Part shown: in pieces, positions 1 to 55,405 of the stretch
How positions within the stretch are numbered: position 1 is the first letter of the stretch
Layout of the letters: each line of letters opens with the position of its first letter
From: Thiomicrospira cyclica ALM1
GTDB taxonomy: Bacteria; Pseudomonadota; Gammaproteobacteria; Thiomicrospirales; Thiomicrospiraceae
NCBI RefSeq assembly: GCF_000214825.1
Contig: NC_015581.1
Coordinates: 124,001-188,000 of the forward strand
Length of the DNA stretch: 64,000 bases
Direction: 5' to 3'
Program-made: the position numbers and the translations under genes
Notes under the pieces: model-generated
What the model was told of the DNA's origin: nothing
Seen by the model: only the letters and a program-made list of their open reading frames with translations
Databases searched by the model: none

Positions 1-3000
1 TGATTAAAGGTAAACAAGGTCGTTTCCGTCAAAACCTGCTCGGTAAGCGCGTTGACTACTCAGGTCGTTCAGTCATCGTAGTAGGCCCAACCTTACGTTT
101 ACATCAGTGTGGCTTGCCAAAGAAGATGGCACTTGAACTTTTCAAGCCCTTTATTTTCAGCAAACTGCAAAAACGTGGATCAGCACCTACAATTAAGGCT
201 GCCAAGAAAATGGTTGAGCAGAGCTTGCCAGAGGTTTGGGACGTGCTTGATGAAGTGATCCGTGAGCACCCGGTACTACTAAACCGTGCGCCAACATTGC
301 ACAGGTTGGGTATCCAAGCGTTTGAACCGGTATTGATTGAAGGTAAGGCTATTAACTTACATCCGTTAGTGTGTTCAGCTTTCAACGCCGACTTTGATGG
401 TGACCAGATGGCTGTACACGTGCCTTTGTCATTGGAAGCTCAGCTTGAAGCGCGTACGCTAATGATGTCAACTAACAACCTATTGTCACCAGCAAACGGT
501 GATCCTATCATCGTACCTTCGCAGGACGTTGTATTGGGTCTTTACTACATTACCCGTGAGAAAATCAATGCTATTGGCGAGGGTAAGGCGTTTGTTAACT
601 GGCAGGAGGTAACACGCGCACTAGAGGCAAAAGTTGTTCATTTGCATACGCGTATTAAATTGCGGGTTAATGAGACTTTGATTGAAGAGGGTGTCGAGCG
701 TTGCCAAACACGTATTGTTGATACAACTGTTGGCCGTGCGTTGTTAAGCCGTATTTTGCCTAAGGGTTTATCCTATGACCTGATCAACACTAATTTAACG
801 AAGAAAAATATTAGTAAGGTTTTAAACACTTGTTATCGTGTGCTAGGTCCAAAAGAAACCGTTATTTTTGCTGACCAATTGATGTATGCCGGCTTTAAAT
901 GGTCAACGATGGCAGGTCTGTCCTTCTGCTCGGATGACATGTTGATTCCAGATGAGAAGGCGCCCATTCTTGAGCGCGCAGAAGAGCAGGTTAAAGAGAT
1001 CCAGACTCAGTATGCGCAAGGACTTGTAACCGAGGGTGAGCGTTATAACAAAGTTGTCGACATTTGGTCACATACTAACGAATTAGTAACCAAAGCGATG
1101 ATGGAGGAGTTGCAGTACGATTTGACTGTCGATGCCAAAGGTGAACAGGTTAAAGAAACATCTTTTAACTCGATTTATATGATGGCAGACTCAGGTGCTC
1201 GTGGCTCGGTTGCCCAGATGCGCCAGTTGGGTGGTATGCGTGGTTTGATGGCTAAGCCAGACGGCTCGATTATTGAAACACCTATTACTGCTAACTTCCG
1301 TGAAGGTTTGAACGTACTTCAGTACTTCATTTCAACCCATGGTGCGCGTAAAGGTTTGGCGGATACAGCATTGAAAACAGCTAACTCAGGTTACCTAACC
1401 CGTCGCTTAGTTGATGTTGCACAAGACGTGGTTGTAACCGAACATGACTGTGGTACCCATGCTGGCATTGAAATGACCGCGCACGTAGAAGGTGGTGATG
1501 TTATCGAATCATTACGCGAGCGTATTCTGGGACGGGTGTTAAGCGAAGCTGTTCTAGATGCCGCTGGCAATGTGCTCGTTGAAGAGGGTACGTTGCTTGA
1601 TGAAAAACTAGTTGACTTGATTGATGCTAACGGCATCGACCGCGTAAAAGTTCGTTCACCGATTACCTGTGAAACAAAGTTTGGTGTGTGTCAAAAGTGT
1701 TACGGTCGTGATCTTGCCCGTGGCCACCTGGTGAATATGGGTGAGGCTGTTGGCGTTATGGCGGCACAGTCAATCGGCGAGCCAGGTACTCAGTTGACCA
1801 TGCGTACATTCCACATTGGTGGTACAGCATCGAAATCAGCGGCTCAAAGTCAGGTTGAAGTGAAATATGAGGGTAGTGTTAAGTTTAATAACTTGAAGAC
1901 AGTACGTAACTCAGAAGATAAAGTGATGGTTACAACTCGTTCTGGGGAAGTAACCATTCAGGATGCAGCGGGTCGTGAGAAAGAGCGTTATAAAATTCCT
2001 TACGGTGCAATACTAGTGGTGACAGAAGGTCAGCAACTAAGCTCTGGTGAGATTATTGCAACCTGGGATCCACATACTCACCCAGTTATTTCAGAGGTAG
2101 CGGGTCTAGTCGAATATGGTAACTTTGATGGTACGGTTGAAGAAAAACTTGATGAGTTAACCGGTTTAGTGACTCGTGTCGTTAAGGGTTCTAAAGAGCG
2201 CTCTAATGCAATGAAAGATGCGCGTCCTTTTATTCGTCTAGTTGATGAAAAGGGTGAAAGTATCTGTTTTGCAGGTACTCAAACACCTGCAATTTACTAT
2301 CTACCAGAAAATGCCATTGTATTAGTGCAAAGTGGTGCAAAACTAACTTCTGGTGACGTATTGGCACGTATTCCACAAGAGTCTTCAAAAACAAAAGATA
2401 TCACTGGTGGTTTGCCACGTGTTGCCGACCTTTTCGAGGCGCGACAACCGAAAGAGCCTGCGATTATGGCGGAAGTTAGTGGTGTAATTTCTTTTGGTAA
2501 GGAAACCAAAGGTAAGCAACGATTAATCATTACCCAAGACTCAGGCGAGCAGTATGAGACCTTGATTCCAAAATGGCGTAGTGTCAACGTGTTTGAGGGT
2601 GAGCGCGTTGAGCGCGGGGATGTGATTGTTGAAGGTAGCCCCAATGCTCATGATATTTTGCGCCTTCTAGGTGTAGAGCGCTTAGCTGAATACATTGTGG
2701 ATGAAGTGCAAGATGTTTACCGACTACAAGGTGTTCGTATCAACGACAAGCATATCGAATCGATCATACGTCAAATGTTGCGCAAGGTTGAAATTCGTTC
2801 TGCGGGTGACACGGGATTGATCAAAGGCGAACAAGCTGAATATGCACGTGTGCTAGAGCTCAATGAGAAAATGCGCGAAGAAGGTAAAGTCGAGGCTACC
2901 TATGAGCGTATTTTATTAGGTATCACCAAATCATCCTTGGCAACGGAATCGTTCATCTCGGCGGCTTCTTTCCAAGAAACTACGCGAGTCTTAACTGAGG

Positions 3001-3254
3001 CAGCAGTCAGTGGTAAGCGTGATACTTTGGTTGGACTGAAAGAAAACGTTATTGTCGGACGTTTAATTCCAGCTGGGACAGGTTTTGCTTATCATCAAGC
3101 GCGCCGCAAGGCTAGTGCTGAAGTTGATAGTGAGTTACGAGCATTCATACAAAAAGAAGTTTTCACTGATGGCGATGATATAAGTGAAGATATTTTAGAA
3201 GAAATGCCGGTCATTGACGACCGAATGATGGAAGTTGAAGAGTCAGAGCAATAA
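1..3254 (+). CDS. rpoC: DNA-directed RNA polymerase subunit beta' (5'-truncated by window edge)
   Basis: Catalytic beta' subunit of RNA polymerase. The reading frame is already open at base 3 and runs 1083 codons to the stop, so the N-terminal part (zinc ribbon, clamp; E. coli protein is about 1400 aa) lies outside the window. The Mg-binding catalytic loop [10 protein letters not shown] is encoded at about 384-413. The trigger-loop/bridge-helix region and the second zinc site ([13 protein letters not shown], near 1668-1706) are intact, as is the C-terminal part ending in an acidic tail. The internal ATG at 114 is not a start, because conserved sequence ([20 protein letters not shown]) continues upstream of it. 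Normally cotranscribed with rpoB, which would be to the left. No terminator is visible after the stop; the rpsL promoter follows within 20 bp. Confidence 0.98.
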
Positions 3255-3273
3255 AAAATCAATAACTTATTGC

Positions 3274-3302
3274 TTGACTTCTAGTAAGTGGATAACTAAA
3301 AT
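3274..3302 (+). promoter_or_regulatory. str operon promoter (sigma-70 type)
   Basis: TTGACT at 3274-3279, a 17-nt spacer and TAAAAT at 3297-3302. This would start transcription near 3309 and give a leader of about 70 nt before rpsL. Unlike the other ribosomal promoters here, the stretch after the -10 is not GC-rich. Inferred from sequence only. Confidence 0.7.
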
Positions 3303-3312
3303 TCTGAAACCC

Positions 3313-3339
3313 TGTTTGTGGGTGTTAAACTCACAAACA
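3313..3339 (+). promoter_or_regulatory. hairpin in the rpsL leader
   Basis: TGTTTGTG and CACAAACA form an 8-bp perfect stem (9 bp with a G-U pair) around a loop of about 10 nt, just after the predicted start of the str transcript. No U-run follows, so it is not an intrinsic terminator. It could be a 5' stabiliser or a site of regulation. Confidence 0.45.
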
Positions 3340-3380
3340 TTTGGCTAATGAGTTAAGTCTCAAATTTGGAGAAAGTTTTA

Positions 3381-3758
3381 ATGGCTACAATTAACCAGTT
3401 GGTTCGTAAGCCGCGTAAAGACAAAGTAAAAAAATCGGCCGTTCCAGCGTTGGATGCATGTCCACAGCGTCGCGGTGTTTGTACGCGTGTTTATACCACT
3501 ACCCCTAAAAAGCCTAACTCTGCCTTGCGTAAGGTTGCGCGTGTTCGTTTAACTAATGGTTTTGAAGTTACTTCATACATTGGTGGTGAGGGTCATAACC
3601 TTCAAGAACACTCGGTCATCCTGATTCGTGGTGGGCGTGTTAAGGATTTGCCTGGTGTACGTTATCATACAGTTCGTGGTGCACTTGACTGTGCAGGCGT
3701 TAATGAGCGTAAACAAGGTCGTTCTAAGTACGGTGCTAAGCGTCCAAAAGGTAAATAA
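3381..3758 (+). CDS. rpsL: 30S ribosomal protein S12
   Basis: Decoding-site protein of the small subunit, 125 aa (E. coli 124). The start is the ATG at 3381, giving the universal [13 protein letters not shown]-terminus with GGAGAAA at 3368-3374 as ribosome-binding site. The in-frame TTG at 3366 overlaps that site and is not used. The [14 protein letters not shown] loop and [13 protein letters not shown] loop both keep the lysines whose mutation gives streptomycin resistance, so the sequence is of the wild-type, sensitive form. First gene of the str operon, with rpsG 54 nt downstream. Confidence 0.98.
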
Positions 3759-3809
3759 GCCTTTTGACATACGCTAGCTAATTTTATTTCTTTAATACCG
3801 GAAGTGTGA

Positions 3810-4286
<477 letters not shown>

Positions 4287-4295
4287 TTCACTACA

Positions 4296-4321
4296 AGGGC
4301 CCTTGATGGGCCTTTGTTCTT
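4296..4321 (+). terminator. weak terminator-like hairpin between rpsG and fusA
   Basis: AAGGGCCC and GGGCCTTT form an 8-bp stem with one G-U pair around loop TTGAT (4297-4316), followed by GTTCTTT. The U-run is interrupted, so partial termination or mRNA processing inside the str operon is more likely than a true operon end. Confidence 0.45.
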
Positions 4322-4349
4322 TCAAACATCAAAGTAAAAGGTTAATAAA

Positions 4350-6452
4350 GTGGCACGTCAAACCCCTTTAGAGCGTTATCGTAACATTGGTATCATGGCT
4401 CACATTGACGCAGGTAAGACAACAACTACCGAGCGTATTCTTTTTTATACCGGTAAATCACATAAGATTGGCGAAGTGCACGATGGTGGTGCGACCATGG
4501 ATTGGATGGCGCAAGAGCAAGAGCGTGGTATTACTATCACATCGGCTGCGACCACTTGTATGTGGGCCGGTATGGCGAAACAGTTCCAAGAGCATCGCAT
4601 TAACGTTATCGATACGCCTGGACACGTTGACTTCACAATTGAAGTAGAGCGTTCACTGCGCGTATTAGACGGTGCAGTAACCACATTCTGTTCTGTTGGT
4701 GGTGTTCAGCCGCAGTCTGAAACAGTATGGCGTCAAGCTGATAAATATGGCGTGCCGCGTATGGGCTATGTCAACAAAATGGATCGTGCAGGTGCGAACT
4801 TCCTACGAGTTGTTGAGCAGATTAAAACTCGTTTAGGCGCTACACCAGTTGTTATGCAATTACCTATTGGTGCTGAAGATACTTTTAATGGTGTTGTTGA
4901 TCTGATCAAAATGAAGGCCGTTATCTGGGATAAAGAAACTCAGGGTCTGAATTTTGAATATCAAGACATTCCTGCTGATATGGTAGCGGACTGTGAATCT
5001 TATCGTGAGCAAATGGTAGAGTCTGCCGCTGAAGCAAGCGAAGAGCTCATGGATGCCTACCTTGAATCTGGTGAGTTGACTGAAGAACAGATTAAGCAAG
5101 GTATTCGTGCACGTTGTATTAATAATGAAGTCATTCCAATGTTCTGTGGTTCGAGCTTTAAGAACATGGGTGTTCAGGCGCTGCTAGATGCTGTTATTGA
5201 ATACTTCCCTTCGCCGCTAGATGTTCCGGCTATCGAGGGTGAGCTTGAAAGCGGTGATAAAGCAACGCGTGAATCCTCAGATGATGCACCATTTGCAGCA
5301 CTTGCATTTAAAATGATGACAGATCCATATGTGGGAACTTTGACGTTCGTTCGTGTTTATTCGGGCGTGCTAAATTCAGGCGAAGCGGTTTATAACCCAG
5401 TCAAGAGTAAGAAAGAGCGTGCGGGCCGATTAATTCAAATGCATGCTAACACGCGTGAAGAAATTAAAGAATTGCGTGCTGGTGATATTGGCTGTGTTGT
5501 CGGTCTTAAGGATGTTACTACAGGTGACACTATTTGTGATCTTGCCAATATCATTACGCTTGAGCGTATGGAGTTTCCAGAGCCTGTTATCTCGATTGCT
5601 GTTGAGCCTAAGACCAAAGCCGACCAAGAAAAAATGGGTATTGCTTTGCAAAAACTGGCTTCAGAAGATCCATCATTCCGTGTTCGTACTGATGAAGAAA
5701 CGGGTCAAACGATTATCTCTGGTATGGGTGAGCTTCATCTGGATATTATCGTAGATCGTATGAAACGTGAGTTTAACGTTGAAGCGAATGTGGGTGCTCC
5801 GCAAGTTTCTTATCGTGAAACAATTCGTCAGTCAGTTGAGGCTGATGGTAAGTTTGTTCGTCAGTCTGGTGGTCGTGGTCAGTATGGTCACGTGGTGCTT
5901 CGTATTGAGCCTCAAGAGCCAGGCGCGGGCTTCACTTTTGAAAATGCAATTGTTGGCGGTGTTGTTCCTCGTGAATACATTCCTGCTGTTGAGAAAGGCG
6001 CTAAAGAACAGCTGGAAAACGGTGTAATCGCAGGTTACCCAGTTGTGGATGTAAAGGTAACCGTTTTCGATGGTTCTTATCATGATGTTGACTCAAACGA
6101 AATGGCATTCAAGATCGCAGCATCTATGGGTGTGAAAAACGGCGTTGAAAAAGCACGTCCGGTCATTCTTGAGCCAATAATGGCTGTTGAAGTTATTACA
6201 CCTGAGGAATACATGGGCGATGTTATGGGTGACCTTAACCGTCGTCGCGGTATGATTCAGGGCATGGAAGATACACCAACTGGTAAAGAGCTAAAAGCTG
6301 AAGTTCCGTTATCGGAAATGTTTGGTTATGCAACGAATGTTCGTTCTTTATCTCAGGGTCGTGCAAGTTATGCTATGACTTTCGCGAAATATGCAGAAGC
6401 ACCTGCTTCAATCCAGGAAGAAATTATCGCGAAAGCGAAAAAAGGTTCTTAA
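4350..6452 (+). CDS. fusA: elongation factor G
   Basis: Ribosomal translocase GTPase, 700 aa (E. coli 704). Starts with GTG at 4350; AAAAGG at 4336-4341 is the ribosome-binding site, and no ATG fits the conserved N-terminus [21 protein letters not shown]1 [10 protein letters not shown]2 region with RGITI, G3 DTPGHVDFT and G4 NKMDR are intact, followed by domains II-V with the usual GGGRGQ-like SGGRGQYGH segment. Third gene of the str operon, 63 nt after rpsG and 25 nt before tuf. Confidence 0.98.
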
Positions 6453-32257: not shown

Positions 32258-33841
32258 ATGGATAGTCCGGCTAATCAAAGCAAGCCCAGTGTGCAACTCG
32301 TATGGTTTAAGCGCGATTTGCGTATTCATGATCATACACCGCTGCATTTTGCCGCCCAACAGGCCCAACACACCCAACAGGGTGCGGTATTGCCCGTCTA
32401 CGTTTTTGAACCCGAGCTTTGGCAACAACCAGATGCCAGTCTGCGGCAATGGCGGTTTGTCGCCGATTGTTTAGTGGATTTAGATGCCGATTTGCGCTCG
32501 CTCGGGCAAGGCTTGATGTTTGCCATAGGCGAGGTTGAAACAGTTTTCAGTCAGTTGCGCCAGCAGTATCACATTAGTGCGGTTTGGTCGCATCAAGAAA
32601 CCGGAAATGGGTGGACTTTTCAACGGGATCGACGGCTTAAACACTGGTTAAATGAACAGCAGATTGCTTGGTATGAGCTTGCCCAGCATCCGATTAAACG
32701 CGGCCCTACGCAACGAGATCATTGGCAGGGTCAAGCCGAGCAGTTTTTTCAGCAACCTTTACTGACGGCGCCTTCATCCTTATCAGGCCTGGTGAGGACG
32801 CCCAGCCTCAGTGGTTCATGGCTTGCCGAGCAAGTTGCGGGTTATTTACCTGCGCCGATTGTGGCCAATGAGCAAAGCCAGCCGGGCGGGCGTCGGCGCG
32901 GTGAGCAGCGCCTAGCCGATTTTTTGCAATGCCATCTAACGCGTTATTTGTACGACATTGCCAAGCCCTTGGCATCGCGTCAATCCAGTTCGCGCTTAAG
33001 CCCCCATTTAGCTTGGGGCAGTTTATCGATTCGTGAGGTACTGCAGGCCGCTTATGCCACTCGTGCGGCGGGCGAGAAAAATTCTCGAGCATTGGGTGCC
33101 TTTGTATCGCGGCTGCACTGGCAAAGCCATTTTATGCAAAAACTGGAAACTGAGCCGGAGCTCGAGTTTTGTTGTTTGCAAGCGGAAACCGAGTTGTTAC
33201 GTAGCCGAGGCACTCATCCTGAGCGTTTGCAGGCCTGGTATCAGGGACAAACCGGCGTGCCATTGGTGGATGCTTGTATGCGCTGTTTGCTTCATACCGG
33301 CTGGCTGCCGTTTCGGATGCGAGCAATGGTGATGAGTTTTGCCAGTTATCAGTTGTGGTTGGATTGGCGCGACACGGCACCTTTACTGGCGGGGCTATTT
33401 ACCGACTATGAGCCGGGGATTCATTATTCGCAGGTGCAAATGCAATCGGGCACCACGGGAATTAATGCAATGCGTGTTTATAACCCGGTTAAACAGTCGC
33501 AAGACCATGATCCAGATGGGCGTTTTATTAAGCAGTGGTGCCCTGAGTTGGCTGAGTTAGATGCGGCGTTTATTCACGCGCCCTGGGATGCCGCGCCGGA
33601 ATGGTTGGCACAAGCAGGCCTGGTATTAGGGCAAAATTATCCTTGGCCAATTGTTGATTTGACTCAGGCGGCGCGCGATGCGAAGCAACAACTGGCGAGC
33701 TTGCGCAAGCAGCCGACGGCCAAGGCACAAGCGCAACAGGTTTTTCAAAAGCATGGTAGCCGCTTGCGTTCAGCCAGTCGGCGTCGGTCTAAAAAAACCA
33801 CCAGTATCGGCTCAGATCATCCACAATTGAGTTTGTTTTAA
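32258..33841 (+). CDS. divergent photolyase/cryptochrome-family flavoprotein with C-terminal beta-clamp motif
   Basis: 527 aa. Photolyase N-terminal domain start [15 protein letters not shown] and C-terminal FAD-binding helical domain ending with [18 protein letters not shown]. The segment corresponding to the FAD/Trp region of class I enzymes (NNGGWQW) reads HYSQVQM here, so the proximal tryptophan and the flavin-facing asparagine seem replaced (my hand alignment). It is therefore not an ordinary CPD photolyase. After a basic low-complexity tail the protein ends exactly in QLSLF (523-527), the consensus for binding the beta sliding clamp. The stop is directly followed by the DUF2256 ATG. Confidence 0.85.
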
Positions 33842-34000
33842 ATGAAAATGCGAAAAAAGTCGGAATTGCCAAGCAAAATCTGTCCGGTGTGTTTGCGTCC
33901 GTTTGTGTGGCGAAAAAAGTGGGCGAAGGACTGGGAGAGTGTCATTTATTGTTCAGAGCGTTGTCGGCGGTCTGCAAAACATGGGAAACAAAATGATTAG
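33842..34000 (+). CDS. DUF2256 small zinc-ribbon-like protein
   Basis: 52-aa gene starting at the base after the preceding stop. Sequence features: lysine-rich N-terminus, [15 protein letters not shown], then [10 protein letters not shown]; cysteines C14, C17, C37 and C41 make a CxxC...CxxxC site, and the tryptophans between them match DUF2256. This family is commonly found beside photolyase-related genes, as here. Function unknown; the four cysteines suggest zinc binding. Its end overlaps the start of the Fe-S photolyase gene by 8 nt in another frame. Confidence 0.9.
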
Positions 34001-35534
34001 AAAATTGGTGGTGGTATTAGGTGATCAGTTAAACCAGGATTCGTTGGTTTGGCAGGATTTTGATGCAAAGCAGGATGCGGTGTGGATGGCCGAACTGCCC
34101 GAGGAATCGACTCATGTTAAATCGCATAAACAACGCACAGTCTTGTTTTTAAGCGCGATGCGCCACTTTGCCGAGCAGCTGCGTCAGCATGCCTGGTCGT
34201 TGCATTATCTTGAGCTGGGCAGTCATGATTTTGTCAGTTTTGAACTGGCTTTGAAGGACTTTTTATCTCGTCATCCGGTTGGCTCAGTTGAGTTGGTGCT
34301 ACCGGGTGATTATCGCGTGTTGCAGCAGATTAAATTGGCCTGTCAGCAAACAGCAACCCCATTGAATGTTTTGCCTGATGTGCATTTTATTGCCGAACCC
34401 GGTGAATTTAAGACCTGGCTGGCGGGGCGAAAAAAACCGACCATGGAATATTGGTATCGGCATTTGCGCCAGCGCACAGGGGTTTTAATGGACCTCACAA
34501 CAGGCGGTAAAAAACCGCTCGGCGGCAAGTGGAATTATGATGCCGATAATCGGCAAAGTTTTGGTAAAGCGGGTCCACAAGCCGTGCCGGAACCTGTGCG
34601 ATTTGCGCCTGATCAAATTACCCAGGAGGTGATGGCGCAGGTGCAAACCCAGTTTACCAATCACCCCGGCCAACTGGATGAGTTTGGTTGGCCGGTGACT
34701 CGTGCGCAAGCGTTACAGGCATTAGACGACTTTATCGCTAACCGACTCACCAAGTTTGGCGATTATCAGGATGCCATGTGGTCGAACCAGGCCTGGTTGT
34801 ATCATTCGTTATTATCTGTGGCGCTTAATCTCAAGCTGCTTAATCCGCGTGAAGTGATTGCCGCCGCCGAGCAAGCATATCAACAAGGGCGTGCGCCCCT
34901 GAATGCGGTAGAGGGCTTTATTCGGCAGATTTTAGGCTGGCGCGAATATGTGCGCGGCTTGTACTGGTCCTATATGCCGGATTGGTTACATATGAATGCC
35001 TTGGATGCCCAGCAGGACTTACCGGGTTTTTATTGGACAGGCGACACCGAAATGGCTTGTTTAAAAGATTCAATCGGTCAGGTGCTGGAGCATGGCTATG
35101 GTCACCATATTCAGCGCCTGATGGTGACAGGATTGTTTGCCCTGCTGTGGCAAGCGAAACCTGAGCAGGTGCATCACTGGTATTTAGCCATGTACGTCGA
35201 TGCGGTGGAATGGGTGGAATTGCCCAATGTGTTGGGCATGAGCCAGTTTGCCGATGGCGGTTTAATGGCCAGTAAGCCCTACATTGCCAGTGGACAATAC
35301 ATCAATAAAATGTCGGGTTATTGCCAACACTGCCCCTATAGCCCCAAAGAAGCAACTGGTCAGCAGGCCTGCCCCTTTACCACCCTCTACTGGGGTTTTA
35401 TTGAGCGGCATCAAGAGCAGTTTCGTGGTCATCCTCGTTTGGGTATGCAGGTGCGGCACCTAGATGCGATGAGTGACGAAAAACGCCAGCTGATTCAGCA
35501 AAAAATCCGGCAGTTGCGCGATATCACGGCTTAA
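33993..35534 (+). CDS. Fe-S cluster bacterial cryptochrome/(6-4) photolyase (DPRP/PhrB family)
   Basis: 513 aa. Begins [16 protein letters not shown], the start of the deoxyribodipyrimidine-photolyase-related family, and contains [13 protein letters not shown], the [11 protein letters not shown] motif and [22 protein letters not shown]. Cysteines at 356, 444, 447 and 460 have exactly the spacing of the four [4Fe-4S] ligands of Agrobacterium PhrB (350, 438, 441, 454 as I recall them). That protein repairs (6-4) photoproducts using FAD and a lumazine antenna. Start ATG 33993 is chosen because homology begins there and GGGAA lies just upstream; longer starts run through DUF2256. Operon with the two preceding genes. 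Confidence 0.93.
34785..34798. repeat. AACCAGGCCTGGTT iterated palindrome
   Basis: 14-bp perfect palindrome inside the Fe-S photolyase gene, read as Asn-Gln-Ala-Trp. Confidence 0.85.
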
Positions 35535-53069: not shown

Positions 53070-53972
53070 TTATTGCGGCTTATTCATTAATAAAGGCTCG
53101 AACCAAAACGGCCAGGCGCGTAAGTCGCAGGCTACAGCAGACTCATTCCCTTCTTCAAAAGTGTTATCCCCCATAATCCAGCTTTGTAAACTTCCTAATG
53201 GTTTTAGTAAGTCTCCAACACCCATCATAGTTGCTGACCCCTGTGGCGGAAGTAAGTAAATCGCGCCTTTAAATGGCGTTAAGTCTTGGGGTAGTACAAG
53301 ATCAAGGAGGGATTCGAAAACCTGTTCTGTAAATACGGGGGTTAATCCTTGTTCGTAGCAATGAAGTACCATTAACTTAAGTAACCAGCCGGGTGTTTCA
53401 GCCTGTTGTAAGATGAGAATAAGGTTTTTGGACTGATAGGTTTGTTGCCGCCATAAGTGAATGCGATGCGATAGTTGCTGATTGAGTTCTTGTAGCCAGG
53501 CCTGGATCCAAAATATTTCATTGCAATCCATGTCGTCTGAGATTTGTGTGTTGCTAAGTTGTAAAAATAAGTGCGCAAGGTCTGAATACTTGCGTTCTGT
53601 GGTAAGAAGGCGCAGCGTTAAGGCGTGAAGCTGTTGAAAACTTTTGGCCTTAATTGCCTGGCGTATTACGTTATCCCAGTCACAGTCAAGGCATTCAGTG
53701 GGCGCTTTTGGCGTTAGTAATTCAGAACGTTCATTGAGTATCGTCTTCACTTGGCTAATCGGCAAGCCACTATCAACTAATGTGATAGCTTCCTTAATAA
53801 TGGCTAGATGGTTTTCTGTATAAAGGCGGTGACCCGAGGCGGTGCGAACAGGCTCGACTAACCCATAACGACGCTCCCAGGCTCGAAGTGTAATAGGTTT
53901 AATACCCGTAAGACGTGAAACTTCACGGATTGGGTAGAGTGCTTGTTGATCTTTTGAGGGTTCATTAATCAT
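53070..53972 (-). CDS. MerR-family regulator, class II LitR/CarH-like (no B12 motif)
   Basis: 300 aa. N-terminal MerR winged helix, about residues 12-80: YPIREVSRLTGIKPITLRAWERRYGL, PVRTASGHRLY. The C-terminal 200 aa have the length of the CarH/LitR sensory part, but I find neither the DxHxxG cobalamin motif nor the Wx9EH motif of adenosyl-B12 sensors. This fits class II LitR, which works with LOV proteins instead of B12. It is the last gene of the seven-gene operon starting at 59732 and overlaps phr by 4 nt, so autoregulation is likely. Contains CCAGGCCTGG read as QAW. Confidence 0.88.
   Translation of the reverse strand: MINEPSKDQQALYPIREVSRLTGIKPITLRAWERRYGLVEPVRTASGHRLYTENHLAIIKEAITLVDSGLPISQVKTILNERSELLTPKAPTECLDCDWDNVIRQAIKAKSFQQLHALTLRLLTTERKYSDLAHLFLQLSNTQISDDMDCNEIFWIQAWLQELNQQLSHRIHLWRQQTYQSKNLILILQQAETPGWLLKLMVLHCYEQGLTPVFTEQVFESLLDLVLPQDLTPFKGAIYLLPPQGSATMMGVGDLLKPLGSLQSWIMGDNTFEEGNESAVACDLRAWPFWFEPLLMNKPQ
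53496..53505. repeat. CCAGGCCTGG iterated palindrome
   Basis: Inside the LitR-like gene, read QAW. Confidence 0.85.
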
Positions 53973-55405
53973 GCATTGGTCATCATTTTAAGTGCCTGAA
54001 CGCGTTGTTGATGATCCAATCGAACTTGCTTGAGATTAGGATCATGAAGCGGATAGTTTGCTGCTAGCGTTGGAAATTGTTGCTTTATTTTACCGGCTGC
54101 ATCCCAGGGGGCATGAATTAGTTGGTTTGGCAGCGGCGCTAATTCAGGCAACCATTGTCGAATATAGTGACCTTGTGGGTCAAACTTTTCACTTTGAACG
54201 ACTGGGTTAAAGAGTCGAAAATAAGGAGCGGCATCAACACCGCATCCAGCAACCCATTGCCAACCCATAACATTATTTGCAATATCAGCATCTAACAATG
54301 TATTCTCAAACCAGGCCTGGCCAACTAGCCAGTGCTGATTAAGGTTTTTAGTTAACCAAGACCCCACTAGCATTCTAACGCGATTATGCATCCAACCAGT
54401 ATGCCAAAGCTGCCGCATACCCGCATCAATAATAGGAACGCCTGTGAGCCCTCGTTGCCAAGCAACTACTTGGTCATCAGGCTCGGGCCAGTCGATTTGG
54501 TTAAACTTGCTTTGGTAGGCTTGGTTAATTAAGCCTGGGTTAAAAAATAATAAATAACGCGAAAACTCCCGCCAAATCAGTTGACGAATAAAGCTTTGAA
54601 TAGCCTCACTATGCCCGGGTTGGTTGGCTTGAGCTTGTCGGCATGATTCAAGCAATCGTGTTGAGCTGATTTCCCCAAAATGCAAGTGGATCGACAGTTG
54701 ACTGGTTCCGTTAATAGCAGGAAAGTCTCGTCGCTCTGGGTAGTGCTGAATGTGAGTTGTTAAAAAGTGCGTTGCCTGGTTAATGGCGGCTTGTTCGCCA
54801 ACCTTCCATTGGCTAATAAGTGGTTTGGCCCAGTCAGTATTCGCAATCGCTTTTAGACGACTGGGTAATTGGCGGTCATGATTTTCCAGCGTTACCGGTT
54901 GAAAATTGCTCCAGTTGGCTTCGCCCTCTGGTTTGGGAACCCCATCCAGCATACTGAACACCTTTTTACTAAACGGGGTGTAAACGCCATAGGGGTTACC
55001 TTGTTGTGTTAGCACGCTTTCAGGAGGCAGCCAGGCCTGGTCAAAGGGAGTTAGTCTTACCTTTAAGCGCTGACAAACAGCTAGCGCCTGTTGCTGAATG
55101 GTTTGATAGGGTTCCCCGAGTTCAAAGTGGTAGAGTACGTTTTTAACATTATAGGTGGTAAGCACGCGCTCAAATGCCTGACTAAATTCACCTTCAGCAA
55201 CAAGTAGGTCCGCGTTCTTAGCTTGTAAAGCTGTTTGAAGTTTACTTAAGCTAGCGGCTAGCCAGACCTGGTTAGCTTCACCTTGAGCCTGCTGAGGGTC
55301 ATGAAAATAAGCAAACAACGTCGGTTCGTTTTGGCTTAGCGCTCTGTGGATAGGCGTGTGATCGTTTAAACGTAAGTCACGTTGAAACCAAATTAACTGA
55401 TTCAT
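53969..55405 (-). CDS. phrB: class I CPD DNA photolyase
   Basis: Repairs cyclobutane pyrimidine dimers with light, 478 aa (E. coli 472). Antenna domain start LIWFQRDLRLNDHTPIHRAL; FAD domain with SIHLHFGEISSTRL, QLIWREFSRYLLFF, GVPIIDAGMRQLWHTGWMHNRVRM and DADIANNVMGWQWVAGCG, retaining the asparagine and tryptophans lost in the photolyase-like protein at 32.3 kb. Starts one base after the upstream gene's stop. Two iterated palindromes inside, each read QAW. Confidence 0.96.
   Translation of the reverse strand: MNQLIWFQRDLRLNDHTPIHRALSQNEPTLFAYFHDPQQAQGEANQVWLAASLSKLQTALQAKNADLLVAEGEFSQAFERVLTTYNVKNVLYHFELGEPYQTIQQQALAVCQRLKVRLTPFDQAWLPPESVLTQQGNPYGVYTPFSKKVFSMLDGVPKPEGEANWSNFQPVTLENHDRQLPSRLKAIANTDWAKPLISQWKVGEQAAINQATHFLTTHIQHYPERRDFPAINGTSQLSIHLHFGEISSTRLLESCRQAQANQPGHSEAIQSFIRQLIWREFSRYLLFFNPGLINQAYQSKFNQIDWPEPDDQVVAWQRGLTGVPIIDAGMRQLWHTGWMHNRVRMLVGSWLTKNLNQHWLVGQAWFENTLLDADIANNVMGWQWVAGCGVDAAPYFRLFNPVVQSEKFDPQGHYIRQWLPELAPLPNQLIHAPWDAAGKIKQQFPTLAANYPLHDPNLKQVRLDHQQRVQALKMMTNA
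54311..54320. repeat. CCAGGCCTGG iterated palindrome
   Basis: Inside phrB, read QAW; preceded by AA, giving AACCAGGCCTGG. Confidence 0.85.
55031..55040. repeat. CCAGGCCTGG iterated palindrome
   Basis: Second copy inside phrB, read QAW. A degenerate copy CCAGACCTGG follows at 55262-55271. Confidence 0.85.

Follow-up and report, generated by a model that had tools for sequence, protein, structure and literature searches.

The present study points to a photolyase/cryptochrome-family protein which is very probably tethered to the bacterial sliding clamp DnaN by the motif QLSLF at its C-terminus, and which probably works at replication forks. The gene was found in the window, that is, the whole 64 kb stretch of DNA that was analysed (Table 1), and the stop codon of its open reading frame (33839-33841) comes directly after QLSLF. 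Pfam analysis of the 527-residue protein revealed PF00875 (DNA_photolyase) at residues 14-144 (E 1e-24) and PF03441 (FAD_binding_7) at residues 282-479 (E 1e-65). The AlphaFold model has a photolyase fold (pLDDT 86, pTM 0.87), and the two domains together with this predicted fold place the protein in the photolyase/cryptochrome superfamily. It was claimed in the first-pass annotation that the protein ends in a clamp motif carried on a basic, probably flexible tail. The ending is borne out, as QLSLF fits the consensus for clamp-binding motifs (CBM; Q-aliphatic-x-[L/M]-[F/L], or the hexapeptide form), which was taken from PMC13254535. The flexibility agrees with the model, in which residues 503-527 have pLDDT below 50 and form a predicted disordered, accessible segment.

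Table 1. Features of the photolyase-family locus, with positions in the window, and loci of motif-less family members that adjoin a Cry-DASH gene
Feature	Position	Strand	Basis
Photolyase/cryptochrome-family protein, 527 aa, with C-terminal clamp motif	32258-33841	+	ORF, Pfam, fold
Basic linker, predicted disordered, residues 503-522, differs among orthologues	33764-33823	+	pLDDT <50
QLSLF, residues 523-527, beta-clamp-binding motif (CBM, by sequence)	33824-33838	+	Sequence, conservation
DUF2256 protein, 52 aa	33842-34000	+	PF10013, E 6e-22
PF04244 (DPRP) photolyase-related protein	33993-35534	+	ORF, PF04244, E 3e-72
Motif-less loci next to Cry-DASH: L043, L044, L050-L052, L075-L077, L079, L083, L116, L117, L120			

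The ATG of the DUF2256 gene abuts the stop codon of the photolyase-family gene with no gap, and a DUF2256 gene also adjoins family members in other genomes. The DUF2256 and PF04244 genes share 8 bases, the ATG of the latter (identified in the sequence itself) lying within the end of the former, and this suggests that the three genes form one operon. The window contains two more photolyase-family genes, the PF04244 gene itself and one at 53972-55405 on the minus strand, and neither has a terminal clamp motif.

A match of five residues could be a product of chance. The motif is short, many proteins were inspected in the first-pass annotation, and the DNA pattern stands at chance level in the genome: Q-L-x-L-F-stop occurs 6 times in 1.93 Mb as against 7 times for the reversed control. 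As the count is no higher than in the control, the pattern by itself proves nothing, and it is placement and conservation that carry the claim. The photolyase-family ORF is the only gene-length ORF in the genome closed by QLxLF-stop, the other five occurrences lying in open frames of at most 58 codons. The orthologues came from several sets: relatives of the genome, a set with one genome per species, 369 genomes of the class, 398 of the phylum, and plasmids; Bacteroidota, Planctomycetota and Verrucomicrobiota were thinly sampled. The motif is QLSLF or QMSLF in every Thiomicrospira orthologue, whereas the preceding linker varies in sequence and length, and the synonymous codons for the motif differ between orthologues. 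Variants of the motif occur in distant relatives such as Pokkaliibacter, alphaproteobacteria and an Opitutia MAG. Thus, the check proposed in the first-pass annotation, whether orthologues keep the motif, came out in its favour. The tails, taken as the part beyond a KHGSR-like anchor, were compared with 5000 composition-keeping shuffles in 77 non-redundant members, all less than 75% identical to one another. The strict CBM was found in 27 of the 77 tails (shuffle mean 0.53, maximum 4) and the relaxed CBM in 46 (shuffle mean 3.2, maximum 11); 19 of the 46, for example QGSFDF and QASFDW, fit the relaxed pattern only. The strict motif is exactly terminal in 23 of 96 family members and in none of 226 background ORFs, which were neighbouring ORFs of at least 250 aa at the fetched loci. 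Among other photolyases, 1 of 41 has a strict motif in its last 20 residues, in a stretch resembling a chance match. The CBM is therefore conserved above chance by the shuffles, the tree and the background ORFs, and with 46 of 77 divergent tails carrying it and clustering on the tree, chance as its origin was rejected and is given next to no weight.

The ends of distant members include QLSLFGDA, QMQLF, QLALF, QLSLFPDDEEIHS, QLPLF, QLSLDFK, QLTLEL, QLDLDLQG, QLDLFPEPDL, QLDLFS, QLSLFPE, QMSLFD, QLKLPFGDI, QMSFKF, QLKLDL, QLLLDF, QLSLPFEN, QMQLDL, QLDLF and QLVLDL. The family thus displays both known CBM forms, the pentapeptide (QLSLF, QMSLF, QLALF, QLPLF, QLDLF) and the hexapeptide (QLSLDF, QLDLDL, QLTLEL, QLKLPF). 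It should be noted here that hydrophobic C-termini can act as protease signals, so the end of the protein could be a degradation signal, or it could pack on the core, its likeness to a CBM being incidental. Several tails, however, extend beyond the motif (such as the member with QLSLFPDDEEIHS, or that with QLSLFDEGG...), and hence the motif is not an end-signal. The leading Gln is kept, the switching between penta- and hexapeptide is typical of clamp binders, and the tail of the modelled protein has pLDDT below 50. Most motif-bearing members have about 20-57 aa between the KHGSR-like anchor and the C-terminus. A terminal degron or packing was rejected, since the motif may lie inside the tail and its distance from the core varies, and we regard it as very improbable. 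Two members (L118 and L119) have two candidate clamp motifs in their C-terminal tails, QADLPF and QLSFDL. In another (L010), GTCARM is repeated three times in the linker before QMSLF, which is likely a recent expansion that spared the motif. L063, L108 and L118 seem at first to have N-terminal fusions, but this was rejected, as by eye the extra stretches resemble stop-to-stop extensions of the frame in high-GC DNA. A search for phage copies of the family yielded distant photolyases only.

A tree of the 77 rows was built on the core alone. One half carries a CBM in 47 of 52 rows (46 by the relaxed pattern, and L115 with QLSLW), and the other half in 0 of 25. The motif label changes 5 times on this tree as compared to a mean of 24 when the labels are shuffled; because the branch between the halves has weak support where the root is drawn, the tree does not tell gain from loss. 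The five exceptions in the motif-bearing half are L038, L039, L066, L074 and L114, and no frame slip hiding a motif was found when their other frames were read. Given these five and a whole sister half without the motif, the core does not need the tether for its function. Tail length alone does not yield the motif either, because six members of the motif-less half have tails of at least 12 residues. A Cry-DASH gene adjoins the motif-less group at 13 of 30 loci (Table 1) and the motif-bearing group at 0 of 47, at the same threshold and as lower bounds, the flank lengths being different. Cry-DASH, a photolyase specific for ssDNA, belongs to the same superfamily as the present protein but differs in the active-site loop. 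A clamp tether that is kept in one large branch, and is missing in the sister branch and in photolyase paralogues in the same genomes, would constitute a natural experiment on the coupling of photorepair to replication.

The genome has one DnaN gene, and its product retains an intact peptide pocket. Twenty-six positions of the pocket and the C-terminus, chosen from what is generally known of the E. coli clamp, were compared with E. coli DnaN, and 23 are identical, the exceptions being Y153F, F241Y and V344S. DnaE of the same genome carries an internal QSDLF and its MutS carries QFDLF, at about the positions where the E. coli proteins have their motifs. The usual view is that a photolyase reaches its lesions by diffusing freely. 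In the present protein, the FAD-binding core would bind DNA, probably damaged DNA, while QLSLF, at the tip of the basic, disordered tail (about 25 residues), would dock in DnaN's hydrophobic peptide pocket in the manner of the polymerase and MutS motifs. Such binding would raise the local concentration of the flavoprotein at the replication fork, or wherever a clamp stays behind on DNA that has just been synthesised. PMC12309361 reports that PolC of B. subtilis ends in an identical QLSLF, that its free carboxylate form binds B. subtilis DnaN with a KD of 3.8 uM, and that this C-terminal motif binds the E. coli clamp about fivefold tighter. PolC, MutS and the Y-family polymerases have the same penta- or hexapeptide grammar in a flexible segment; the carrier here differs in being a photolyase-family flavoprotein. 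Repair enzymes are also known to be linked to the clamp. RecB, with QVEMEF (PMC13254535), and mycobacterial Nei2 (PMC9690074) are reported to be brought to DNA by the clamp, as is proposed for the present protein, although neither is a light-dependent flavoprotein. A search of the open-licence literature, judged mainly by title, abstract and term counts, for a paper linking a photolyase to the bacterial clamp (CBM, beta clamp, sliding clamp, PIP box) found none. This is in line with the earlier remark that no clamp-tethered photolyase has been described, but absence there is not proof.

The core differs from that of known photolyases. The best PDB matches of the model are 4u63 and 6kii (TM 0.73-0.77, 25-27% identity), so that class III and Arthrospira photolyases are the closest solved folds; in contrast to them, the present protein has an extra tail with a clamp motif, and its lesion-contact and Trp-triad positions are unlike those of canonical photolyases. 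All 84 members compared have R, F and H where E. coli photolyase has E274, N341 and N378; for the wider set E274, N341, M345, D374, N378 and W384, the residues are R, F, A, E, H and M in 81-84 of the 84. W277, R344, W359 and D372 are kept, whereas W382 is lost, with V, F, I, L or M in its place; around W306 the alignment is gapped. In the protein encoded at 32258-33841, the replaced lesion and FAD contacts are residues 285, 352, 356, 389 and 395 (R, F, A, H, M); in the model, pLDDT is below 50 for part of the active-site loop (385-388). At the positions that mark class I CPD photolyases (E274, W277, N341, M345, N378, W384) it has R, W, F, A, H and M, and it scores 163 bits with PRK10674 against a cut-off of 506. 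With the Cry-DASH model TIGR02765 it scores 167.5 bits against 317.05, and none of the NCBIfam photolyase models reaches its cut-off on this protein. Judged by sequence, this is a distinct, uncharacterised subfamily of photolyases and cryptochromes, whose active site is both different and fully conserved, and for which no close structure has been solved. Because E274, N341 and N378 are invariantly replaced and W382 is lost, classical CPD repair cannot be assumed from these sequences; the replaced residues are all conserved, and this argues that the pocket has some function. The term 'photorepair' used in the first-pass annotation is therefore itself an assumption, as the catalytic pocket differs from those of known photolyases.

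On balance we favour, with less assurance than the tether itself, that the protein, once on the clamp, uses light to repair DNA at forks or gaps. Its most likely task would be to photoreverse lesions where a fork has stalled or a gap remains, sites at which a clamp is loaded. A fuller reading is tentative: these would be widespread clamp-tethered flavoproteins whose rewired active site uses light to repair not the standard duplex CPD but a lesion or DNA structure found specifically at forks or post-replication gaps. If true, it would link photorepair directly to the replisome. The main rival to such repair accepts that the tail binds the clamp but takes the protein to be a light or redox regulator, which in the light competes with polymerases or alters clamp traffic. 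The replacements at E274, N341, M345, N378 and W384, together with the loss of W382, are consistent with it, as CPD repair may be absent; we nevertheless consider it unlikely, because genes beside some relatives, and fusions in others, point to repair. The sister half adjoins genes for Cry-DASH photolyases. In three Deinococcus plasmids (L122, at 2492-4816, L123 and L126) a family member and a uracil-DNA glycosylase form one fused reading frame; the Pfam UDG match in L122 has E 3e-15, and these fusions are annotated as uracil-DNA glycosylase only. Such a fusion would make sense for repair, because photoreversal of a dimer containing a deaminated cytosine leaves uracil. The linker of the Deinococcus fusions has QPGLF or QPNLF where other members have the motif, and this stretch could instead be part of the glycosylase portion.
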